Below are positions 211 through 63,766 of a stretch of 64,000 bases of DNA, one piece after another. The stretch is from Nitrososphaerota archaeon. GTDB lineage: Archaea > Thermoproteota > Nitrososphaeria > Nitrososphaerales > Gagatemarchaeaceae. The notes under the pieces are model-generated. The model saw nothing but the letters and a program-made list of their open reading frames with translations, did not search any database and was not told the origin of the DNA. The translations under genes and the position numbers were made by a program. Location of the stretch: the NCBI GenBank assembly GCA_016200045.1, contig JACQFN010000002.1, positions 62,001-126,000 on the forward strand, written 5' to 3'. The stretch's first letter is position 1, and the number at the start of each line of letters is the position of its first letter.

Positions 211-1455
211 TTAGCCTGTGACTTCGTCCTGATTCTCGCTCCCTGTTTCAGTCTTTGCCGCACCTCTCGGTGGCGCGGGCTCTGGGACCAGCGAGAACGC
301 CCTCCACCCTGCCTTGACCACGAAAGCGGACAGGAAGGTCGTTATCAGCGTGACCACCCCTATCAGGGGAAGGAGGGCAGTGCTGGCCGGTTGCACGTCT
401 GCTCCCCCCTTTGCCACGACAAGACCCACCTCACCGCCGGAGGCGGACAGTCCGAACGCAGTCCGCAGCGAGACCGAGCTTCCGTATTTCACGGCCCTGG
501 CCGAGCTGAGCACTGTGAATAGCTTCATCGAAATCGAGATCAGCGAAAGAATCACGGCAGGGATGATGAAGACCGGGATCAGGGTCACGTCCATCAGCGC
601 ACCCATGGATACGAAGAAGAGGGCCGCGAACATGTCCCTGAGAGGGGTCGCAAGAATCTTGAGGGTCTCGTGGTAGCTGGACCTGGCCACGAGGACCCCC
701 GCGAGGAAGGCGCCGGTTGCGACCGAGATGCCGATCACAGTGGCGACTATCGACAGGCCGAACGCGATCGCCAGCATGACGAGGATCAGGAGCTCGTCGT
801 TCCGGTAGTCGCCGACCAGGTTGATCGCCCGCGGAACAACCCTCGAGCCAAGGACGAGAGTCCCGATTATGAAGAAGAGGGCCAATCCAAGCGACCAGGC
901 CAAGTCGAAAGGCTCCAGGGTCCCGACCGAGACGACGGACTGCAGTATGGCAAGGAACGACAGCACAATGACGTCTTCCACTATCGACACGGAAATGATC
1001 AGGGCGGAAGCTTCATGGTCGATGAGCTCCATCTCACTGAGAAACTTCGAGGCGACGACCGTGCTCGTCACCGTGATGGCGAGCGCTATGAACAGGCTGT
1101 CGAACAAGGTGAAACTGAGGAACGTCGTCACCGCCAGCGCCACTACAAAGGTCCCGGCCACCTTGAACGACGCCATCGTGAGGACCTTGCGGAGGGTTCC
1201 CTCCAGCCGGTCGGCAGGAAACTCGAGCCCCACGACGAAGAGGAGCATCGCCACTCCGACCTGGGCCAGAGAATTGACGACCGGCAAGTCCAGGATGATG
1301 GCGCCCGGCCAAGTGCTCGGGCCTAGTATTATTCCAGCGAGGAGGTAGCCTATTATCAGCGGTTGCTTCAGCTTGTGGAACAGGATTGCCATCAGGCCTG
1401 AGACGATCATGATCACGGCCAGGTCCTGGATCAGCTGGTAGGCCTGAATCGCCAA
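211..1455 (-). CDS. CPA2-type cation/proton antiporter
   Basis: This 414-residue protein is almost entirely hydrophobic, with about a dozen membrane segments, and carries hallmarks of the Na+/H+ exchanger (PF00999, KefB/CPA2) fold: GYLLAGIILGP near residue 40 and ATGAFLAGVLVARS near residue 250. The family exchanges Na+ or K+ for H+ across the membrane and supports pH and salt homeostasis. There is no C-terminal TrkA-N or RCK domain, so it is the short membrane-only form; the tail after the last helix is about 30 polar residues. The TTG start is supported by a TATA-like box 23 bases upstream, implying a leaderless message. Ion specificity cannot be read from sequence. Confidence 0.9.
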   Translation of the reverse strand: MAIQAYQLIQDLAVIMIVSGLMAILFHKLKQPLIIGYLLAGIILGPSTWPGAIILDLPVVNSLAQVGVAMLLFVVGLEFPADRLEGTLRKVLTMASFKVAGTFVVALAVTTFLSFTLFDSLFIALAITVTSTVVASKFLSEMELIDHEASALIISVSIVEDVIVLSFLAILQSVVSVGTLEPFDLAWSLGLALFFIIGTLVLGSRVVPRAINLVGDYRNDELLILVMLAIAFGLSIVATVIGISVATGAFLAGVLVARSSYHETLKILATPLRDMFAALFFVSMGALMDVTLIPVFIIPAVILSLISISMKLFTVLSSARAVKYGSSVSLRTAFGLSASGGEVGLVVAKGGADVQPASTALLPLIGVVTLITTFLSAFVVKAGWRAFSLVPEPAPPRGAAKTETGSENQDEVTG

Positions 1456-1477
1456 CGGGAAGGTAGCGAAATGCGTG

Positions 1478-1484
1478 ATTATAA
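1478..1484 (-). promoter_or_regulatory. TATA-like box of the antiporter gene
   Basis: The minus strand reads TTATAAT about 23 bases before the TTG start of the antiporter gene. With the usual archaeal TATA-to-start distance of 24-27 bases, transcription would begin at or next to the start codon. This is a motif-and-distance inference. Confidence 0.55.
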
Positions 1485-1521
1485 TTCATCCGCGCAAGCC
1501 GGTTTCCCGTCGGGCTTGGGG

Positions 1522-1911
1522 TTACCTGTCTACGACGAACTTGTACCCGTAGATTATCTGCCCTGACTCTCCGTCCACCTTCATCCTCCTTACCGTCGCC
1601 TTTACCCTTGCGCCGGTCTTCACCGATTCGTCCGGGGAATCGACGACCTGGCTCAGCACCCGGGCGCCGTTCTTCAGCTCGACGACCGCAAGGTAGAACG
1701 GGGCCTGCGCCTCAAAGCCCGGGAGGGGTTCGTGCAGTCGAGTGTATGTGACGATCTTGCCGCTCTTGGGCATCTCCTTGTCAACTATCTTCTCCGACCC
1801 GCATCCCCTGCACCTGTATACGGGAGGGAAGAACTCGTCACCGCAGTTCTGACACCTGCTCCCTATCAGCCTGTAGTATCTGTCGCGGTTCCTCCAGTAC
1901 TCTATTGCCAA
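1522..1911 (-). CDS. DUF35 OB-fold/zinc-ribbon partner of HMG-CoA synthase-thiolase
   Basis: A 129-residue protein with an N-terminal zinc ribbon (Cys20, 23, 34, 37: CQNC and CRGC) followed by an OB-fold rich in strands. This is the DUF35 architecture. In archaea it bridges thiolase and HMG-CoA synthase in a complex that channels acetoacetyl-CoA (established for this family in methanogens). The TTG start directly follows the TAG stop of the thiolase gene, so the two are translationally linked. Order HMGCS-thiolase-DUF35 on one strand matches the classic archaeal mevalonate-entry operon. Confidence 0.93.
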   Translation of the reverse strand: MAIEYWRNRDRYYRLIGSRCQNCGDEFFPPVYRCRGCGSEKIVDKEMPKSGKIVTYTRLHEPLPGFEAQAPFYLAVVELKNGARVLSQVVDSPDESVKTGARVKATVRRMKVDGESGQIIYGYKFVVDR

Positions 1912-54135: not shown

Positions 54136-55614
54136 ATGTCCCACGGGGCCAACATGGTCGGTCAAGCGCCGACCCAACGGAGTCGGAGCGCAATTTCGCG
54201 TCTGGAGGCGACCTCCGCCGCAAGGGTCGGTGGCACTGTCCTGGACAGCTACAGGGTCCCGGCCGGAGGCGGTCCGGACTCTTCCGCCGAAGTCATCGTG
54301 GCGGAGGAGCAAGCGACGGGGAGGTACCACGTGCTCCTCCCTCCCCTCGACCAGGGCGAAGCTGAGGCGCTCGCCCTCCTTCGCGACAACCTGCTCTACG
54401 TCGTCCCTCCGGACGCGACTGGGACCTCCGAGGAGATCGTGAAGCAGTACCTCACTCCCACCGCTGAGAGGACGGGGGTGGCCCCGGTCGTGAGGGCGGC
54501 CGAGAGGAAGCTGCTCTACCACCTGCTCCGCGAGTTCGCTGGCTACTGGGAACTGGACACCTTCATGCGGGACGACAGGATTGAGGAGATCTCGGTGACA
54601 CGTCATGACAGGCCTGTCAGGCTGCTTCACCGAGGGTTCAGCGAATACATGTTCATGGAAACGAACGTCACGTTCAGCAGCGAGGCCAGGCTCCAGGGTT
54701 TGATCCGAAGGCTGGCGCAGTTCGGGGGGACGACCGTGTCTCTCGCTCAGCCCTCCCTTGAGGTGACCCTGCAAGGGGTGTCAGACACCAGGATCACGGC
54801 GACCCTCGGGGACGAGATATCCCGGCCGGGCTCGACCCTGGCGATAAGGAAGCAGAGAGAGCATCCGTTGACCCTCGCCCATCTCGCCTCCCCCGAGGAG
54901 CCGGGGATCAGGTCGGCCAAGGCGGCACCGTCCGAGGATGCCGTCCCTCCCTACGAAGAATCGCACGTCCATAAGACGCTGTCAGTACTCATGGCCGCAT
55001 ACTTCTGGCTGCTCCTGGAGAGGACTACCAACGTCCTCATCGCGGGGGAGACGAACTCAGGGAAGACCACCCTGATGAACGCCATACTCGCCCTCATCAA
55101 CCCGAGGACGAAGATAGTCACGGCCGAGGATGTCCTCGAGATCAATCTCCCCGACCACCTGCACTGGCAGAGACTGAAGACAAGGTCCTATCGCGCAGGG
55201 CTTTCCCCTTCGAACGGGACCTACGAGTACGACCTTTCCGACCTGCTCAAGCTTTCGCTCAGGTTCTCCCCGACCGTCCTGAGTCTCGGGGAGATGAGGG
55301 GGGAGGAATCCGAGACCGTGGCCGCCGCCATCACCCTGGGGACCTCGACGATGACCACTGTGCATGCCGAGAGCGCCGAACGGTGCGTCCAGCGGCTGAC
55401 GACGACCCCCGCTGAAGTGGTCGACAGGAGCTACCGCCTCGCCGAAATCGCAAGGGGACTCGGGTGGAGCCCTTCCAAGCTTCAGGCCAAGCTCACCATG
55501 CGCGCAGCGTACGTGGCACGGACGATAGGGGGAGGGAACTTCTCGCCCCAGGCTCTCTCCGAGATGGTCAGGGACTTCTCGGTCACGGACCTGTCTCCGC
55601 ACCGGGAGGGGTGA
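54136..55614 (+). CDS. Type II/IV secretion (pilus) ATPase, GspE/ArlI-like
   Basis: The 492-residue ATPase has the P-loop IAGETNSGKTTLM (303-313), Walker B VLSLGEMRGEES and the His box MTTVHAES, with a 230-residue N-terminal domain. It belongs to the archaeal FlaI/TadA-type group that powers pilus assembly on the cytoplasmic face. No arlH, arlF or arlG genes accompany it, so this is a pilus rather than an archaellum. Its TGA overlaps the next gene's GTG in GTGA. The C-terminal tail MRAAYVARTIGGGNFSPQ is normal for the group. Confidence 0.94.
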   Translation: MSHGANMVGQAPTQRSRSAISRLEATSAARVGGTVLDSYRVPAGGGPDSSAEVIVAEEQATGRYHVLLPPLDQGEAEALALLRDNLLYVVPPDATGTSEEIVKQYLTPTAERTGVAPVVRAAERKLLYHLLREFAGYWELDTFMRDDRIEEISVTRHDRPVRLLHRGFSEYMFMETNVTFSSEARLQGLIRRLAQFGGTTVSLAQPSLEVTLQGVSDTRITATLGDEISRPGSTLAIRKQREHPLTLAHLASPEEPGIRSAKAAPSEDAVPPYEESHVHKTLSVLMAAYFWLLLERTTNVLIAGETNSGKTTLMNAILALINPRTKIVTAEDVLEINLPDHLHWQRLKTRSYRAGLSPSNGTYEYDLSDLLKLSLRFSPTVLSLGEMRGEESETVAAAITLGTSTMTTVHAESAERCVQRLTTTPAEVVDRSYRLAEIARGLGWSPSKLQAKLTMRAAYVARTIGGGNFSPQALSEMVRDFSVTDLSPHREG

Positions 55615-57278
55615 CGTCTTCGGAGCATCGCGGTCCCGAAGTCCGGTCGCGGGGTTGGGGGTCCCTCTCCGCCATCACCAGGTGGAGGACGCGGAGGCTC
55701 GCCGCGCTGGCGTCAAGGGCAGGGACTATCGAAGACCCGGTCGCGATTGCGAGGCGTTCCGCCATGGCATCCTGCCTGGCAGCATTGGTGGTTCTGCCGA
55801 TCTCTGCATTCCTTGGGTCGGCCGTCTCGCCCTACTTCTTCGCGCTTGGGGCCCTCCCCGCCGTCGTCCTCTTCCTCCCCGAACTCAGGCTCAGAGACTC
55901 TTGCTCGAAACGGAAGGAGGGAGTCGAACGGGCCCTTCCGTTCTTTTCGATACTGGTCAACGTGATGGCGGGGGCAGGTATGCCCCTTTATTCCATCTTC
56001 GAGGAGGTCTCCAAGACGGATTTCTTTGAAGCGGTCAGGAAGGAAGCGCTCTGGGTAAGACGAGATGTGACAGTATTCGGGATGGACCCGAACCGGGCCT
56101 TCGAGAGGCTGGCCGCGTCCCACCCCTCGAACAAGTTTGCGACATTCCTGTTCGGATACACGAGCAAGGTGAGGAGCGGAGGGGACATGGTGGTGTACCT
56201 GACGGGCCAGAGCGCTTCGATGATCAGGGAGCTGGAGGAGGGCTGGTCGAGGTACTCCGACCGCGCCGGCATAGTCGGGAGCCTGATGGTCACCGTCTTC
56301 GGGGTCCTGCCTCTGCTCCTCCTCGTGGTGAGCATATTTTCGCCTGCGGCCTCGATGGTCGGCCTCCTCGTCTTCACCGGGGTGGCGGTCCCGCTGTTCA
56401 CCCTGGCGCTCATCACCATGGCCGGAAGGATGCAGCCATCTGGGGAGGTGGTCCTCCGCGGAAGGGCAGCGAGGGGCCTGCTCGCAGGGACGGCCGGGGT
56501 CGCGGTGGGGTACCTTGCCGGGTCTGCCTGGGTCGGAGCCGCGCTGGCCATATCCGGCTTCTTCGTTGTCCACGGCCTGTCGGTAAGGGAAGCCCTGAGA
56601 GAGAACAGGGAGGTGGAAGCCGCCCTCCCCGAGTTCATGAAGGACGTCCTAGAACTGAAGAGGCAGGAATACGGGCTGGCCAAGGGTCTGATGAACATGG
56701 CAGAAAAGAACAGATACAACGCTTCCTTCGACCGCATGCTGCTCGGGATCGCCTCTCAGCTGAGGGCGGGGACTCCCCTCGAGGACGTCAGGGTCTCGTC
56801 CAGGTCCACGCTTGCGAGGATGACCTTCTTCCTGTTGGGGAAGATGGCTCACACGGGCGGGGGTACCGTCGACACGGTATTCCAGATGTCGCTCCACACG
56901 GGGGCGGTCGTGGAGGCTCGACGCAAGGCGCGGGTCGAGATGCGCCCCTACCTCGTCCTGTCGTACGTGTCCCCGCTGATGCTGGCCTTCGGGGTGACCT
57001 TCGTCAGGGGAGTCCTTTCCTCGTTCGGAAAGTCGTTCAGCCCTGGTTCGTCCGCTTCAGTCTCCCCCCTGCAGATAGGCATCATCCCGCCCGCTCTGGG
57101 CCAGGTATCCGACCTGCTGATCGTCGTAAGCGCGGCTGCGCTCGGCCTGATCGGTGTCAAGATGACGGAGTTCACGGTCAGGGACACCCTGAGAGCGTCC
57201 GGGAATCTTTTCCTCGCTGTGGGCGCCATAATCGTGCTCTCGGGTCCGACTGTAGGGTTCCTCTTTCCGACGGGGTAG
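55611..57278 (+). CDS. TadC/ArlJ-like pilus platform membrane protein
   Basis: Starting at the GTG that overlaps the ATPase stop, the 555-residue protein has two T2SF-like cytoplasmic repeats: ERALPFFSILVNVMAGAGMP and LPEFMKDVLELKRQEYGLAKG, each followed by membrane helices. This is the double GspF domain of ArlJ/TadC proteins that anchor pilus assembly. The track ORF begins upstream inside the ATPase gene in another frame. About eight helices are visible, with basic loops between. Confidence 0.9.
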   Translation: MTSSEHRGPEVRSRGWGSLSAITRWRTRRLAALASRAGTIEDPVAIARRSAMASCLAALVVLPISAFLGSAVSPYFFALGALPAVVLFLPELRLRDSCSKRKEGVERALPFFSILVNVMAGAGMPLYSIFEEVSKTDFFEAVRKEALWVRRDVTVFGMDPNRAFERLAASHPSNKFATFLFGYTSKVRSGGDMVVYLTGQSASMIRELEEGWSRYSDRAGIVGSLMVTVFGVLPLLLLVVSIFSPAASMVGLLVFTGVAVPLFTLALITMAGRMQPSGEVVLRGRAARGLLAGTAGVAVGYLAGSAWVGAALAISGFFVVHGLSVREALRENREVEAALPEFMKDVLELKRQEYGLAKGLMNMAEKNRYNASFDRMLLGIASQLRAGTPLEDVRVSSRSTLARMTFFLLGKMAHTGGGTVDTVFQMSLHTGAVVEARRKARVEMRPYLVLSYVSPLMLAFGVTFVRGVLSSFGKSFSPGSSASVSPLQIGIIPPALGQVSDLLIVVSAAALGLIGVKMTEFTVRDTLRASGNLFLAVGAIIVLSGPTVGFLFPTG

Positions 57279-57295
57279 ACTGTGGCAGGTTGGGG

Positions 57296-57304
57296 GTTAT
57301 ATCG
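57296..57304 (+). promoter_or_regulatory. TATA-like box of the pilin operon
   Basis: GTTATATCG lies about 25 bases before the first pilin ATG, so pilins can be transcribed independently from the assembly genes, which would allow a higher level of subunits. Confidence 0.5.
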
Positions 57305-57324
57305 TCGGCAGCTCTTTCGGTCCG

Positions 57325-57852
57325 ATGAAAATACTCCATTCACGCAAAGCAATCTCCCAGAGCATGGACCTGTTCATCATCATCGCGGCAGTGCTAGGGA
57401 TCGGCGGGGTGGTGACGGCAGCCACCTACGGTCTTGTAAGCAGCGGAGCCTCGTCAACCACCGCAGAGATCCTCGCTTCGACGCTGACGGGAGGGCCTCC
57501 CTCCGGCGGGGGTACGTTCACCCTCTCGCTGACCATCAAGAACGTCGGGACCACCCCTGTAACCCTTTCCGCAACCAGCCCGATCAACGTGACGATCACC
57601 GGGGTCAAGGGCGTGGCATCTTCGTCGTGCACCCAGTCGGGGTCCCTCACGTGGGGTTCGGCGCACTGTCTGCTCCCAGCCTCGCTGGTCGACTGGGTCG
57701 TCACCTCCGGGACCGTGACTCCCGGGCAACAGGTCTCCCTCATCGCGACAATGACAACGACCGGGACTAACCCTGTAGTCTCTGGCGGGTCCTACGCAGT
57801 CAACGTGCTGTTCGGGGCGTCTTCGACCTCGGTCAAGCTGAACGCTCAATGA
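57325..57852 (+). CDS. Class III signal pilin-like protein 1
   Basis: A 175-residue protein whose N-terminus MKILHSRKAISQS precedes a 22-residue hydrophobic helix (MDLFIIIAAVLGIGG). The SRKA/I site fits an archaeal prepilin peptidase cut, leaving a short basic leader. The remainder is Ser/Thr/Gly-rich and strand-like, typical of pilin heads. One pair of cysteines (SSCTQ, AHCLL) could form a disulfide. It is the first of four pilin genes joined by overlaps. Confidence 0.8.
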   Translation: MKILHSRKAISQSMDLFIIIAAVLGIGGVVTAATYGLVSSGASSTTAEILASTLTGGPPSGGGTFTLSLTIKNVGTTPVTLSATSPINVTITGVKGVASSSCTQSGSLTWGSAHCLLPASLVDWVVTSGTVTPGQQVSLIATMTTTGTNPVVSGGSYAVNVLFGASSTSVKLNAQ

Positions 57853-58346
57853 CCGCTAACGGGAAGGAGCCCCTCCCTCATTTTTCGCGGCGGAGAATGG
57901 GGGTGAGCGAGCTCTATGCGTCTCTGCTGATGCTAGGAGCAACCCTGTCGCTAGGCTCGTTCATCACCGCGGCTGCGGTAGGCCAATTCGGGCTCGCCAC
58001 GTCCTCGTCCGCGGCGTCGTCGCTCGTGGAACAGAGGTCGTCGGGGAAGCTCATGGCCTTCGTCTACGCGACCACCGCCACCCCGGGTCCCTGTCCGCAG
58101 TACGCCGGGTCTCCGGAAGGAAGCACCCTGGTCTTCGCAGTCTTCGACTACGGGTCGTCAGCCTTCACCCCGATGATTATCTCAGTGAACGGGACCATCT
58201 ACACGGGAGCGTTCCCGAGTGCCCAGCCGGGAGGCCTTGCGACCTACCAGGTCACCCTCACGCCGGCGGGGACCTGCGTCCACACTTCAGGGCAGACCGT
58301 CATGCTCTCCGACCCTTCGGGGGATGAATTCGAGTTTGAGACGTAA
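57849..58346 (+). CDS. Class III signal pilin-like protein 2
   Basis: ATG overlaps the stop of pilin 1 in ATGA. The leader ends RRRMG and is followed by VSELYASLLMLGATLSLG, a hydrophobic helix as in archaeal pilins. The 165-residue product has two cysteines in the head (PGPCPQ and AGTCVH). It is a likely minor or structural subunit of the same pilus. Confidence 0.78.
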   Translation: MTANGKEPLPHFSRRRMGVSELYASLLMLGATLSLGSFITAAAVGQFGLATSSSAASSLVEQRSSGKLMAFVYATTATPGPCPQYAGSPEGSTLVFAVFDYGSSAFTPMIISVNGTIYTGAFPSAQPGGLATYQVTLTPAGTCVHTSGQTVMLSDPSGDEFEFET

Positions 58347-58815
58347 AGGGGTCTCGACCTACATAGAGGTGTTCGTCCTGATCGGGATCGCGACAGGGGG
58401 GTCAGCGCTGGCCTATTCAGCGGTCGGGAGGCTTGGCGCGTCTTCGTCGGGACCCTCCTTCGGGGTGACAGACCAGACGATCAGGCAGGGGACGAACGCC
58501 GCCACCGAGAGGATGACAGTCACGAACACGGGCCAGACCGGCATCACGAGCTTCAAGGTCTATCCCGGGGTGGCGTCCGCGTACTGCGTTTCAGTCTCGA
58601 GCGTTTCCTCGGGTGCGGTCTTGTCGACGACCTGCCCGGCGACATCGAACGTCTTTCCAGTGGCGCTGTCGGTCAACCTGGACCCGGGGGCGTCGGTGGT
58701 GTTCGTCCTCTTCTTCCCAGGCGCAGCCGTCTTCCAGGTTGGGAGCGCCTATCCCGTGACGCTAGCAGCAGGGTCCGCGACCCTGGGAGGGCGGGCGGTG
58801 GCACTTCCCGCATGA
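58324..58815 (+). CDS. Class III signal pilin-like protein 3
   Basis: The product (163 residues from ATG 58324; TTG 58336 possible) begins MNSSLRRKG, then VSTYIEVFVLIGIATGGSAL, the class III signal layout with cleavage after RRKG. The head has two cysteines (SAYCVS and TTCPAT). The track ORF begins 105 bases upstream inside pilin 2 in another frame. It overlaps both neighbours. Confidence 0.77.
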   Translation: MNSSLRRKGVSTYIEVFVLIGIATGGSALAYSAVGRLGASSSGPSFGVTDQTIRQGTNAATERMTVTNTGQTGITSFKVYPGVASAYCVSVSSVSSGAVLSTTCPATSNVFPVALSVNLDPGASVVFVLFFPGAAVFQVGSAYPVTLAAGSATLGGRAVALPA

Positions 58816-59759
58816 ACCCTTTCGCCGGGCGGAGGGGGGTGGCATCGGTGATAGGGACCCTGTTCTTTGTCTTCGTGTTCATGATCGCGATCGGCGCACA
58901 GGCCTACATGTCCGGCCTGCAATCCCAGTCCTCCCAGGCCGCGGAGGCGGCTCAGAACGTGGTGGACAGGAAGGTGGCGGAGGCCCTGAGGTTCGACGGT
59001 GGCGGGACGTCCGTCACAGCGGTCAACACGGGCGGGAGCCTCGAGCGCTTCAGGTACGTGGTCCTCAGGTTCAACAACGGCAGCGCGTACGCACTCCAGA
59101 CGAGCGCGGCCGTCCCCCCGGGGAGCTCCGAGCCGGTGGCTCAGATGGTGCCGTCGGGGACTTGCGGGAAGATGCAGTGCTCGCAGAAGTACAACCTGAT
59201 CGCGACCGGGGCGGCTGCGGGCGCGGTGGGTGTGGTAACCTCGTTCGGGAACACCTATTGGTACTCCCCCACCGACCCGACTGTGTCCGGGGGCGTGGGA
59301 GCGTACTACTGGACCCTTTCGAGGCAGTCGACGTCCTCGACCAGCTTCGTCCCTCTGACAGGGCTGGCGTTCACCGGCACCGCGAATTCGTTCTACAGGG
59401 TCTACGTCAGACTCGGGTACTACCAGTCTGCCATCAACGACCCGGGGCTGTCCTTTGCTGCCTCCGGTCCCGCCGGTGCTTCGGTCTTCGCCTGCGGAGG
59501 AATGGAGTACCCGGACGTCGCTCCGCAGTGCACGAGTTCCTTCAACGCGCAGGTCGGGATGACGGTGTTCGGAGGCGACTCCGTCATAGGCGCCGACTAC
59601 TGCGTGGGAGCGACATACCCGTGCGTATACGGGGCCACGATAGACGTGGTGTTCGGCTCCAGCGGAGGGACGTTCCAGCTCGAATTCAAGACGGCGGGGG
59701 CGACCACCGGGAGCGTCATCGCGGGGTCGTCGATCACGGTTGCAGAAGGGGTGAACTAG
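58812..59759 (+). CDS. Class III signal pilin-like protein 4, large (possible tip adhesin)
   Basis: At 315 residues this is nearly twice the size of its pilin neighbours. The leader GRRG is followed by VASVIGTLFFVFVFMIAIGA. The large C-terminal domain is rich in Gly, Ser, Thr and aromatic residues, with cysteine pairs (TCGKMQC; FACGG, QCTSS; DYCVG, YPCVY). The ATG overlaps the previous TGA in ATGA. A minor tip pilin or adhesin is the natural guess. Its stop overlaps the convergent HerA-like stop. Confidence 0.75.
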   Translation: MNPFAGRRGVASVIGTLFFVFVFMIAIGAQAYMSGLQSQSSQAAEAAQNVVDRKVAEALRFDGGGTSVTAVNTGGSLERFRYVVLRFNNGSAYALQTSAAVPPGSSEPVAQMVPSGTCGKMQCSQKYNLIATGAAAGAVGVVTSFGNTYWYSPTDPTVSGGVGAYYWTLSRQSTSSTSFVPLTGLAFTGTANSFYRVYVRLGYYQSAINDPGLSFAASGPAGASVFACGGMEYPDVAPQCTSSFNAQVGMTVFGGDSVIGADYCVGATYPCVYGATIDVVFGSSGGTFQLEFKTAGATTGSVIAGSSITVAEGVN

Positions 59760-61222
59760 GACCTGACGTCCAACTCGACCGGCTCCGAGAAGAACCTCCT
59801 CGTGGTCCCGCTGGCGGGGGAATCGAAGGGGTCAACGCTCAGTATGACCGGGAGGTTGTTTACGGCGTGTCCCAGAAGCAGGCACGTCCGTGGCGGGAGA
59901 GTCCTTACGACCGCCTTCACCGTGTCGGTGTCCGCCATCGACGCCTGCGAGACCATAGAAAGGTCCGCGTCGTTGCTGAAATTGTAGAGGAAGATGTTGT
60001 CGACCTGCCTGTAGATCTTCTGGTCGATCGCGTCAGGCTGGTTGGTCACGAAGATGGTGAAGACCCCGAAGTGCCTCATCCTAGTGATCAGGTCCTCCCA
60101 GTAAGTGTCGCGGAGGTAGAGGTGCGCTTCTTCGGCGAATAGGAAGACCGGAGGGACTTTCCTGTGCTCGAGGAGCTCTACCATCTTCGACAGCACGAGC
60201 TCCACCACCATCCGCCGGTTCAGGGGGCTGACGCCGCTCAGGGAGATGACAAGGCACCCCCCCTCGCCCTCCCGCGAGAAGAATCCCTGAAGGTCGAACT
60301 GCCTCTCCTTCGAGTCGGTAAAGAGGCCGCAGGAGGCGAGGGTGTGGAAGCGCGCGAAGAGCGCGTCCCTCACGAACTCGTTGCACCTCCACTGGTGTAT
60401 TGCGGCCTCCAGGGAGGCGAGCGAGAGGTCGTTCCTCCCTTCGAGCTGGTCCCATATCTTCACGAACTCCCTTAGCGAGGTCCCGGGCATCTCGAGCGAG
60501 TGCGAAAGGAGGTTGGTGATCGACCGGAGACCGGCCGCCGCCAGGGAGAGCTTCATCTCCCTCCCCGGGCGCATCACCTTCACGAGCGGGAAGACCCCCG
60601 TCTTCTTCCCCTCCCCGTCAAGTCCTATTGAGCCGTACTCGTCGTTGAGGTCGAAGACGATGCTGTACGCCCCGTGCGTGAGGAGCCCCCTCAGCAGCAT
60701 CTTCGCCAGGTGAGACTTCCCCGACTCCTTTCCCCCTGTGATGACTGTTATCCTGCCGTCCAGGGCCTCGGCCGGAACGAAGAACTCTGACCCCGAATCC
60801 ACAGTCCCCACCTTGATACCCCTCCTGCCGAGGGGCGCGACCGAGTCGGCGAGGTCCTCGACCAGGAGCCTGGACACCCTGCAGTTGGTCCTCGAAGGCA
60901 TCCAGTCAGCCCTCGGCGAGAGCCTGCCGTTGGAGAGCGTCCCGCGGGCCTTGCAGACCAGTATCCGCATGTCCCTGATCAGGGTGGAGATGGCGGACAG
61001 GCCGGTGGGGTCTTCGGTCACCCCGTGGGCGGACGCAGAAAGGACTTCTTCCCTGGCGATCTCCTCTTCGATCCCCTCGACGTCGAGATAGCGCTCGTCG
61101 TAAACCTGGAGGACGAGGCTCCTCGACTCTTCGGAGGCGACAAGGTAGTCCCCCACCCCGGCGCGTTCTCGTGGTGATGCGATGACAAGGATGTCGTCTG
61201 ACTCCTTCTTCAGGACCTTCAG
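59756..61222 (-). CDS. HerA-like hexameric ATPase
   Basis: The P-loop is GGKESGKSHLAKM and Walker B is VFLFAEEAHLYL with the catalytic Glu; the C-terminal DUF87 region has IFVTNQPDAIDQK. HerA family ATPases translocate DNA and work with NurA, whose gene is directly upstream. The track start GTG 61156 lies inside the N-terminal HAS-barrel region. The frame continues upstream to CTG 61222 (KVLKKESDDILVIASP...), three bases after the NurA stop, so I use this CTG. It is a second HerA-type gene with a NurA, away from Mre11-Rad50 in this window. Confidence 0.85.
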   Translation of the reverse strand: MKVLKKESDDILVIASPRERAGVGDYLVASEESRSLVLQVYDERYLDVEGIEEEIAREEVLSASAHGVTEDPTGLSAISTLIRDMRILVCKARGTLSNGRLSPRADWMPSRTNCRVSRLLVEDLADSVAPLGRRGIKVGTVDSGSEFFVPAEALDGRITVITGGKESGKSHLAKMLLRGLLTHGAYSIVFDLNDEYGSIGLDGEGKKTGVFPLVKVMRPGREMKLSLAAAGLRSITNLLSHSLEMPGTSLREFVKIWDQLEGRNDLSLASLEAAIHQWRCNEFVRDALFARFHTLASCGLFTDSKERQFDLQGFFSREGEGGCLVISLSGVSPLNRRMVVELVLSKMVELLEHRKVPPVFLFAEEAHLYLRDTYWEDLITRMRHFGVFTIFVTNQPDAIDQKIYRQVDNIFLYNFSNDADLSMVSQASMADTDTVKAVVRTLPPRTCLLLGHAVNNLPVILSVDPFDSPASGTTRRFFSEPVELDVRS

Positions 61223-61225
61223 GTT

Positions 61226-62221
61226 TCAGGCCCCTCCCTTGAAGGTCCCCAACGCTATCGTGCGCAGGGTAAAGGTAGGGAGGCTCCTCAGCCGGAACTG
61301 TCTGGTGACGTAGGCCTTGATCGCCTGGTCGTCCGCCTTCGAGAACACCGACAGATGGTGAGCGACCTTCAGGGACTCGGGGTACCCGGCGGAGAAGGCA
61401 TCGTTCCAGAGGACCCGGCCGAGGACAGATTCAACGGTGTCATTCCTGCATGCGACGTCCAGCCTGAAGACGAGGCCGTCGGTCGCGAACTTCGCCAGTA
61501 GCGTGGCAACGTCCCCGTCTTCGAGTATGTGGTAGGAGGGGCGCGGCTCATGCGTGAGGGAGCCGAGGGCCGCCTCGTTGAATATCAGGTTGCTCGACTT
61601 CGAAAACCCGACCAGGCACCCTGCCTCTCCAAGCCTGCTCGGAAGAAATCGATTGAACTGTCCGAAGGGGTGCTTGAGGGAGCCGTCGGCCATGACCACC
61701 ATCCTCTCCCTGCTGCCGAGGAGAGCCTCCACCACCCTACTTTCCAGGGTGTTCCTGATGACCCGCTCTGCGATTGCGTGGTCGGACAGGACCATCCCGA
61801 GCTCGGCTCGGGAGAGTTGGGAGCCCAGGCCTGTCAGCCCCGCAGAGGAAGCGTAGACGAGAATGGGCCCAAGCCTGAAGAACTTCCGGACGGCACCTTC
61901 GAACGAGACCCCTACTGCGGTCCTCGCGGCGTAGAGCGCTCCCTCCGATGTCTCTCCGACAAGCACGCACGTCGAGTCCACGGACGCCACAGGCCGCCCT
62001 TCTTTGAGGGGAATTATGCACCCAGGGGCTTGCGATGCGTCCATGTCCTCGATGTACGGGTAGATGTCCTTCCCATACCGGCTGAAGATGAAGTTCCTGC
62101 CGGAGAGGTGCCTCTCCGCGCTCTGGGCCAGTTCGGCGAAGGACCGCCTGAGCTCGTTCACCAGAGGGTCCAGAAGGCCGGGTCCGTCTTCGTCGGGAAG
62201 GCTTAAAATACTGTTGGACAT
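61226..62221 (-). CDS. NurA-domain nuclease
   Basis: The 331-residue protein (ATG 62221) has the NurA catalytic aspartates in VASVDSTCVLVG (Asp82) and VVMADGSLKHP (Asp179), plus a lysine in VGFSKSSNL (about 208). NurA is a Mn-dependent 5'-3' and endonuclease that forms a complex with HerA in DNA end resection; here it is directly upstream of the HerA-like gene. The track start lies in the promoter region; ATG is preferred. Confidence 0.85.
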   Translation of the reverse strand: MSNSILSLPDEDGPGLLDPLVNELRRSFAELAQSAERHLSGRNFIFSRYGKDIYPYIEDMDASQAPGCIIPLKEGRPVASVDSTCVLVGETSEGALYAARTAVGVSFEGAVRKFFRLGPILVYASSAGLTGLGSQLSRAELGMVLSDHAIAERVIRNTLESRVVEALLGSRERMVVMADGSLKHPFGQFNRFLPSRLGEAGCLVGFSKSSNLIFNEAALGSLTHEPRPSYHILEDGDVATLLAKFATDGLVFRLDVACRNDTVESVLGRVLWNDAFSAGYPESLKVAHHLSVFSKADDQAIKAYVTRQFRLRSLPTFTLRTIALGTFKGGA

Positions 62222-62222
62222 C

Positions 62223-62276
62223 TTGGCCACCAACAGTAGGGCGCGGTGGATTAATAAGAGTTGCGCAAGTTGGCCA
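62223..62276. promoter_or_regulatory. Symmetric control region between nurA and the wHTH gene
   Basis: TTGGCCA occurs at 62223-62229 and again at 62270-62276. Between them lie a TATA-like TTAATAA (62251-62257) and the palindrome TTGCGCAA (62261-62268). The region separates divergent nurA and the first winged-helix gene, so it is a good operator candidate for one of the adjacent winged-helix proteins. Motifs are seen; binding is inferred. Confidence 0.5.
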
Positions 62277-62301
62277 ATAGCAATAGCCACGGGGGCGGCA
62301 T

Positions 62302-62709
62302 CTGACGAGCGACGCCGAAAAGCCCAAAGTCACTGTCAAGCTGAAGAGGGGTTCCTGGGAGATAGAGATCACTTCGCCCGAGGAAAGGGTGCAGCAGGCT
62401 GTGGAGAGCGTGCTTGCGGGGATGTCCTCGAAGGAGCCCGCGCTGGTCGACCAGCCCCTGTCGGAGGAGGACCCGCGGAGGTTCGAGACTTGCAGGGGGC
62501 TCCTCCAGACGATGTGGAGGGAGGGCTGGTTCGGTACCCCGCGGGCCCTGTCTGAGGTGCACGACGAGATGAGCAGGAGGGGGTTCCACTACGACCGGAC
62601 AGCGGTCGCCCACACCCTCGTCGACCTCGTGAGGGAGGGGACCCTCTTCAGGGACGGGAGCATGCGGAACTATCGCTACGTCCAGAAGCATCCGTTCAAG
62701 GGACAGTAG
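62302..62709 (+). CDS. Winged-helix protein A of a local three-member family
   Basis: The track starts at GTG 62389, but the frame is open upstream and encodes KVTVKLKRGSWEIEITSPEE, which aligns in pattern with the N-termini of the two neighbouring proteins. No ATG, GTG or TTG precedes it, so CTG 62302 is the likely start (135 residues). The C-terminal half is a winged helix: RALSEVHDEMSRRG, TAVAHTLVDLVREGTL. I do not recognise a family. It is divergent from nurA, across the symmetric control region. Confidence 0.7.
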   Translation: MTSDAEKPKVTVKLKRGSWEIEITSPEERVQQAVESVLAGMSSKEPALVDQPLSEEDPRRFETCRGLLQTMWREGWFGTPRALSEVHDEMSRRGFHYDRTAVAHTLVDLVREGTLFRDGSMRNYRYVQKHPFKGQ

Positions 62710-62724
62710 GCCATGTCGGCTGGC

Positions 62725-63234
62725 TCAGGCCGGCTTCAGCTTCTTGGTGAGGAGCTCGCTGAGACGGCTCACACCGAGGGTCGACACCCTGTACCTCCCC
62801 CCTCCCTCTCCGGCGACACGCTCCACCTGAGCCGATTTCGTGAGTTCGCTGAGGCGCGAGCTTATCGTCTTGGGGTTGAGGCCGGTCGTCGCTTCGACTT
62901 CGGAGACGCTGAGCGCGTCCGAGGAGGCCTTCGCGCTGAGCAGGGATATTCTAGCGGCGACAAGCTGCAGGACGATGACGTCCCTGTCGCTGAGCTTCTT
63001 GTCCTGGGTCCACACCCGCGGGCCCTCGGGGGTCACCCTGACGTAGTCCCTGAACATCTGAACGAGGTCGTTGAGGGAGAAGTTTACGCTGATGGCCCGC
63101 GCCAGGTCCATGTTCGGGACCACCTTGGAGACGAATTCGTGCAGCGAACGCATCACCACTTCCGGGGGCCCGGAGAACTCGACCCTGCTGTCTCCGTAGC
63201 TGACGGAAACCGAAAGGTTCTGGTCTGATGACAT
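62725..63234 (-). CDS. Winged-helix protein B of the local family
   Basis: A 169-residue protein with the shared N-terminal segment (VSVSYGDSRVEFSGPPEVVM), a middle helical part and a MarR-like winged helix (SVSEVEATTGLNPKTISSRL, VERVAGEGGGRYRVS). It is probably a DNA-binding regulator. ATG start; a minus-strand TATA CCAATAAAGG lies about 24 bases upstream. Confidence 0.8.
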   Translation of the reverse strand: MSSDQNLSVSVSYGDSRVEFSGPPEVVMRSLHEFVSKVVPNMDLARAISVNFSLNDLVQMFRDYVRVTPEGPRVWTQDKKLSDRDVIVLQLVAARISLLSAKASSDALSVSEVEATTGLNPKTISSRLSELTKSAQVERVAGEGGGRYRVSTLGVSRLSELLTKKLKPA

Positions 63235-63271: not shown

Positions 63272-63766
63272 TTAGCTTGGCTCGGCCAAGGACGTCCAGG
63301 CCTCCTCGTCGCCGGGGCGGGGCGGGACGGCCATTACCCCTCCCGAAGTGTAGACGAACTCTCCGTCTTCCGCCTTGAACCTCCTCAGCCTAGCCGTCTT
63401 GGCGAGCCTCAGGAGGGCAACGGCGACCGACTGCTTCGGATAGTTGAGGCCGTAGGACTGGAGGGCGTCCCTCACGTCCGATAGCTTGCGCCTCTCCCTC
63501 CCCCAAGGCTCCGCGAAGAACTTCCCGATTACATCTGCGAGCGAATCGCCCTTGTCCAGATGGACGGATGGCACAGAAGAACCTCCGCCTTCGTATGAGA
63601 CCGCCCTCTCGGCATGCAGGGGTCCGGCCCCGTCGGGCGCCTTCCCGTTTGCTCCCGGGAGCTTCGAAGCGAGCTCAGGCACGAGGTCAATCGCCTCCCT
63701 GATGTGCTCTGGGTCCGACTCCACCTCTGCCTCGGCCTGCCCGAGCCTGACCCTGATCTTTGTCAT
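63272..63766 (-). CDS. Winged-helix protein C of the local family
   Basis: The 164-residue product starts with the shared N-terminal segment (KIRVRLGQAEAEVESDPEHI) and ends in a winged helix (LSDVRDALQSYGLNYPKQSV), with a low-complexity Gly/Ala/Pro linker between. The helix pattern around its HTH resembles protein A. No ligand-binding domain is apparent. ATG start; a TATA-like GGCTTATAACG lies about 32 bases upstream on the minus strand. Confidence 0.78.
   Translation of the reverse strand: MTKIRVRLGQAEAEVESDPEHIREAIDLVPELASKLPGANGKAPDGAGPLHAERAVSYEGGGSSVPSVHLDKGDSLADVIGKFFAEPWGRERRKLSDVRDALQSYGLNYPKQSVAVALLRLAKTARLRRFKAEDGEFVYTSGGVMAVPPRPGDEEAWTSLAEPS

Follow-up and report, generated by a model that had tools for sequence, protein, structure and literature searches.

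Conserved genes that lack ATG, GTG and TTG at the true start and are mis-annotated by gene finders are known from bacteria, where they are rare. Translation of infC starts at ATT, or at ATC in Streptomyces, and that of sigR at GTC (PMC5472188). CUG is a further natural start codon, as is proposed below for an archaeal genus; it accounts for about 0.024% of bacterial starts and has about 0.86% of the efficiency of AUG (PMC11497404). Across 36 surveyed genome triplets, 2 of 61,358 AUG starts had switched to CUG (PMC5622118), and the rates published for such switches are about 1e-5 to 1e-4. For archaea, Ribo-seq of Methanosarcina mazei gave CTG starts in 5% of 314 unannotated sORFs (PMC11456600). 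A search of the open-access literature found no account of an archaeal genus whose conserved genes recurrently start with CTG/ACG.

The window is a stretch of 64,000 nucleotides from a Nitrososphaerota archaeon (contig JACQFN010000002.1). Gene A, near its end, very probably has a non-canonical start upstream of GTG 62389, as one case of a genus-wide CTG/ACG habit; its product is most likely a small DNA-binding regulator. In this predicted role gene A resembles sigR, which encodes a transcription regulator (PMC5472188). For infC and sigR, single genes are concerned and codon-specific repression by IF3 was shown experimentally, whereas here several unrelated archaeal genes are proposed, by comparison of sequences, to start with CTG or ACG. 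The M. mazei cases share the archaeal CTG start but are short, unannotated reading frames of a euryarchaeon; here the genes are conserved and full-size, and ACG is found too. The features of gene A are as follows.

62302-62709, plus strand: gene A, beta-hairpin/helix module and winged-helix protein (ORF translation, orthologs, AlphaFold2)
62284-62286, plus strand: TAG, in-frame stop that bounds gene A on the upstream side (sequence)
62302-62304, plus strand: CTG, start candidate of the first-pass annotation (sequence; CTG starts recur in the genus)
62305-62307, plus strand: ACG, ancestral start position by alignment to the starts of relatives
62329-62430, plus strand: conserved N-terminal module VTVKLKRGSWEIEITSPEERVQQAVESVLAGMSS, two strands and a helix (orthologs, codon differences, AlphaFold2)
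62389-62391, plus strand: GTG at residue 30, the earliest canonical start in frame (sequence, model)
62491-62685, plus strand: predicted winged-helix DNA-binding domain, residues 64-128 (AlphaFold2; generic wHTH matches in the PDB)

The frame of gene A is open from 62287 and ends at the stop TAG 62707-62709. The product is 135 aa long read from CTG and 134 aa read from ACG. The codons after the upstream TAG are CCA CGG GGG CGG CAT CTG ACG AGC GAC GCC GAA AAG CCC, followed by AAA GTC ACT GTC AAG. The first ATG, GTG or TTG is GTG 62389. Canonical codons are thus absent ahead of the conserved coding region, back to the in-frame stop; the first-pass annotation had described an open frame free of them from CTG 62302 to GTG 62389, and the sequence bears this out from TAG 62284-62286 onward.

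Of 31 genus genomes, 22 carry an ortholog of gene A, as do 46 of 61 relatives, and the alignments run through the upstream segment. The named genome collection holds 80 loci related to gene A, from Thaumarchaeota/Nitrososphaeria and Bathyarchaeota/Bathyarchaeia. Genus orthologs are 66–83% identical to protein A, counted from about residue 3–8, and most alignments begin at residues 2–8 of the CTG-started form; identity to the G003 ortholog is 83%, upstream segment included. Codons were compared over 62329-62388 (20 codons) with five relatives. Synonymous and non-synonymous differences are 12:1 (G007), 8:3 (G003), 8:4 (G026), 8:5 (G005) and 5:6 (G012), with third codon positions changed most in all five comparisons. 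Coding conservation therefore reaches upstream of the first canonical start; by these comparisons the upstream codons are shown to be under purifying selection, and the segment is, on the same grounds, a genuine conserved part of the protein and not a chance open frame. Conservation of these codons among orthologs had been named beforehand as a check.

The AlphaFold2 model of protein A (60 sequences; mean pLDDT 77.5) has strands at residues 9–16 and 19–26, a helix at 27–43, then a disordered linker and a winged helix at 64–128, the last with pLDDT mostly above 90. Matches of the model in the PDB are MecI/BlaI, RTP, Zur and RosR folds, generic for wHTH, with E of 0.02–0.09 (best 0.02). The winged fold is common to these regulators and to protein A, but the N-terminal hairpin/helix module is not seen as part of their families. 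No significant sequence family and no Pfam match were found for protein A; the best ortholog scores 17.4 bits against MecI/BlaI (Penicillinase_R), below the gathering cut-off of 22.6. The role of protein A is most likely that of a DNA-binding regulator.

It is very unlikely that translation starts at GTG 62389 and that the upstream segment is an N-terminus which this species has lost or keeps as a vestige. No canonical codon precedes GTG 62389 in the frame, and GTG starts are common in the genus, but codon change upstream of it is mainly synonymous in G007 and G003, protein A keeps its high identity to G003 through the upstream codons, and orthologs start at the upstream position and not at 62389. 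In the predicted structure GTG 62389 falls within helix 27–43, so that a start there would remove the predicted hairpin and begin in mid-helix. Decay of gene A into a pseudogene that has lost its start codon is even less probable. A lost canonical start is typical of the first lesions in gene decay, but the frame is intact to its normal stop with mainly synonymous substitutions, the divergent promoter region is conserved, and such start losses recur in genes that stay intact. A start upstream of GTG 62389 is accordingly strongly supported, and by orthologs rather than by the in-window paralogs first offered for it. These paralogs and the divergent neighbours are as follows.

62725-63234, minus strand: gene B, wHTH-like, convergent with gene A, weakly alike in its module
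63272-63766, minus strand: gene C, full-length homologue of gene A
61226-62221, minus strand: divergent NurA-like gene starting at ATG 62221 (profile/ORF evidence)
59756-61222, minus strand: HerA-like ATPase (DUF87), N-terminus conserved from CTG 61222-61220, upstream of GTG 61156

The upstream segment had been said to match the N-termini of proteins B and C. The match to C stands at profile level (hhalign, full length, E 2.7e-12), and a paralogous family of A is found with C only. For B, profile comparison of the N-terminal module alone gives a probability of 1.9% and E 0.025, and the resemblance is suggestive only. BLASTP of A against B and of A against C finds no significant match. Many genomes of the order preserve the succession A-B-C and the convergent orientation of A relative to B and C. 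The region 54136-62221 contains genes for a T2SSE type IV pilus-like ATPase and a T2SSF membrane protein, pilin-like ORFs, and then the HerA-like and NurA-like genes; its layout recalls the pilus/DNA-exchange systems of Sulfolobales.

Relatives usually start gene A at ATG, GTG or TTG, 10–12 codons ahead of KLKRG. ACG 62305 aligns without gaps to GTG (G003), ATG (G026), GTG (G005) and ATG (G012), so that orthologs start with ATG or GTG at its column, and the codons downstream concur: ATG AGC GAG GGC GAA AAG CCC in G026, ACG AGC GAC GCC GAA AAG CCC in gene A. In G007 the start column likewise holds ACG, with a GTG nine codons downstream as the canonical alternative. By this alignment, the ancestral start position of gene A is ACG 62305. 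CTG 62302 is the codon immediately before it and not the homologous start column. Length is equally compatible with CTG, 12 codons being found in many genus members. Initiation would thus occur either at ACG or at the preceding CTG; the module is the same in both cases and the product differs by one residue. The earlier choice of CTG as the best start is possible, as CTG starts recur in the genus, but is not established, because the start column of relatives is that of ACG 62305.

An error of sequencing or assembly, with a true ATG (or GTG) at 62305 and gene A an ordinary gene, is improbable to the same degree as translation from GTG 62389. ACG differs from ATG by one base, and the assembly probably contains an indel in at least one other place (C22, about 41.0–41.5 kb). 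Against such an error, a second gene of this genome has ACG for ATG at its start and a third has CTG, and independent assemblies of other species carry both codons in A, B, HerA and FixC. These other cases point to CTG, and less often ACG, as recurrent start codons of several genes in the genus (Gagatemarchaeaceae, Nitrososphaeria).

Starts were surveyed by comparing 286 kb of this contig with G003 and G005, and other conserved genes without a canonical start were found. In trios canonical in at least two genomes, the start columns hold ATG 80, TTG 60, GTG 15, ACG 3 and CTG 2. By inspected alignments, CTG or ACG stands at the start of roughly 4–5 of about 150 compared genes of this genome, against the 0.024% of bacterial starts that are CUG (PMC11497404). 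The 95-aa HTH_45 (wHTH) protein has TAG followed directly by ACG GCC CAA TAT here and ATG in 16 other genus orthologs (L282–L297). The FixC-like FAD oxidoreductase gene (L245, 1568-3253, minus strand) has CTG directly after TGA, in the run CTG CCT GAG TTC GAC GTC ATC, immediately before the Rossmann strand. A third gene of this genome has CTG at its start directly after TAA. In G005, a small gene has ACG at the start where G003 has ATG AGT TTC, and CTG ACG ACG or ACG ACG stands where others carry ATG or TTG. The automatic list of start-less genes contained shadow ORFs and false cases. The false cases were removed: clusters 20 and 22, for which inspection found a canonical ATG; cluster 138, with an apparent frameshift; and cluster 158, with an ATG further upstream. 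A small gene downstream of FixC (L245, about 1014-1538, minus strand) seems, compared with G005, to be shifted in frame near a run of G, probably through an assembly indel.

Two genes were followed across species, which are related and not independent, mostly as uncultured MAGs and with starts assigned by comparison. The FixC start in 18 informative species is CTG in 7, ACG in 1, ATG in 1, TTG in 5, GTG in 2 and another codon in 2; an in-frame stop lies 0–4 codons upstream in five of the CTG/ACG species. The HerA-like neighbour was picked by position alone. Its start in 20 species is CTG in 6 (in one of which GTG follows two codons later), ACG in 1, GTG in 7, TTG in 1, ATG in 1, GCG in 3 and AGG in 1. 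Three of the CTG/ACG starts sit 0–1 codons behind an in-frame stop, for example TAG ACG and TAG GGT CTG; the more distant relative AcS1-27 (L039) also has TAG ACG at the HerA-like gene. The 22 N-terminal codons of the HerA-like gene differ by 175 synonymous and 96 non-synonymous changes (84/51/236 by codon position), and are, by this measure, under purifying selection. The start columns of both genes mix Leu, Val, Met and Thr, and their codons are mostly NTG or ACG. CTC, CTT and CTA are absent from them, CTC being the commonest CTN codon (0.43, against 0.37 for CTG). This pattern marks a start codon rather than a conserved residue. Because a few start columns contain GCG, AGG, CGA or TCG, which are neither CTG nor ACG, some of the assigned starts are uncertain. 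Fisher and binomial values, computed from tallies made by hand over related species, are given no weight.

Orthologs of gene B have CTG in G010 and G017 and ACG in G024. A locus of G010 (L005), of the same genus, matches L032 of Thaumarchaeota archaeon SubAcS15-57, which is placed in Ca. Subgagatemarchaeum of the family Gagatemarchaeaceae (PMC10640624); the window's genome is assigned to the family through this genus-mate. Beyond the family, ACG is found at the start of gene A orthologs in G055 (L030), where it lies behind GGTGAAG; in G049 (L119) and G062 (L147), two species of one genus between which it is conserved; and in G046 (L120), where GTT precedes it. In a further family (f2; L125, L126, L153 and L179), gene A is without a canonical start at the usual place; an ATG/GTG lies at the first strand in three members, and in L153 (G079) the promoter is followed by ATA codons only.

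In the HerA, FixC and 95-aa wHTH genes, CTG or ACG might be merely a site of stop-coupled re-initiation, or be reached by readthrough of the stop, and so be no free-standing start; gene A would then need another account. This explanation is less likely than a free-standing start, yet is the most serious of the alternatives. The three starts lie directly or a few codons after a stop, the HerA-like start stands right behind the NurA-like stop and in its frame in this genome (TGA AAC CTG), and termination-reinitiation coupling is described as established in archaea (PMC6728339). Readthrough is not general, however, because in several species the HerA start is out of frame with the stop, and gene A has no codirectional gene upstream. 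It has its own upstream region, with the following elements.

62250-62257, plus strand: ATTAATAA, TATA-like element probably common to the divergent genes (sequence; kept in relatives)
62261-62277, plus strand: TTGCGCAAGTTGGCCAA, conserved operator-like motif between the TATA-like element and the start (alignment)
62291-62298, plus strand: GGGGGCGG, G-rich stretch, putative weak Shine-Dalgarno-like element (aligns with AGGAGGG in G026)

The promoter and leader of gene A are conserved in nucleotide alignment with relatives. The 16S 3′ end was not found by pattern in this assembly. A special RNA hairpin at the start of gene A was considered and rejected, as folding is no stronger than that of shuffles (z about 0). 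The operator-like motif TTGCGCAnnTTGGCCAA occurs within 62214-62277, and a degenerate copy of it is present at the start of the NurA-like gene. Genus relatives conserve the motif, other families still show a recognisable form, and A, B or C could bind to it.

For gene A with its non-canonical start, an ancestral ATG or GTG at 62305 would have changed to ACG. The initiator tRNA-Met would begin the gene at this ACG or at the CTG just before, most likely pairing with one mismatch, at the first position of CTG or the second of ACG. With no codirectional gene upstream and a short leader after the TATA-like element, gene A would have to initiate on its own, from a leader carrying the putative G-rich Shine-Dalgarno-like stretch. 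The starts of HerA, FixC and the 95-aa gene are probably aided by re-initiation behind the upstream stop. CTG/ACG starts would sit beside a start repertoire already rich in TTG. Loss of the fidelity factor aIF1 (SUI1) as the cause was rejected; its gene is present in this genome and in most of the genus, and its absence is not the reason for CTG/ACG starts.

The wider reading is favoured with less assurance than the start of gene A itself. The genus would use CTG/ACG starts routinely, in a few percent of genes, and keep them long at conserved positions, with initiation machinery less strict than that of the archaea studied so far; gene A, in which ACG recurs in other families, may even be tuned. 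Standard gene finders admit only ATG, GTG and TTG starts, so conserved proteins of this acid-soil lineage would be truncated or missed; canonical-only annotation of the FixC-like gene would drop its FAD-binding strand. Should CTG/ACG initiation be confirmed, the genus would offer a natural system for the evolution of start-codon fidelity in eukaryote-like ribosomes, and would raise the question of whether weak starts set protein levels.
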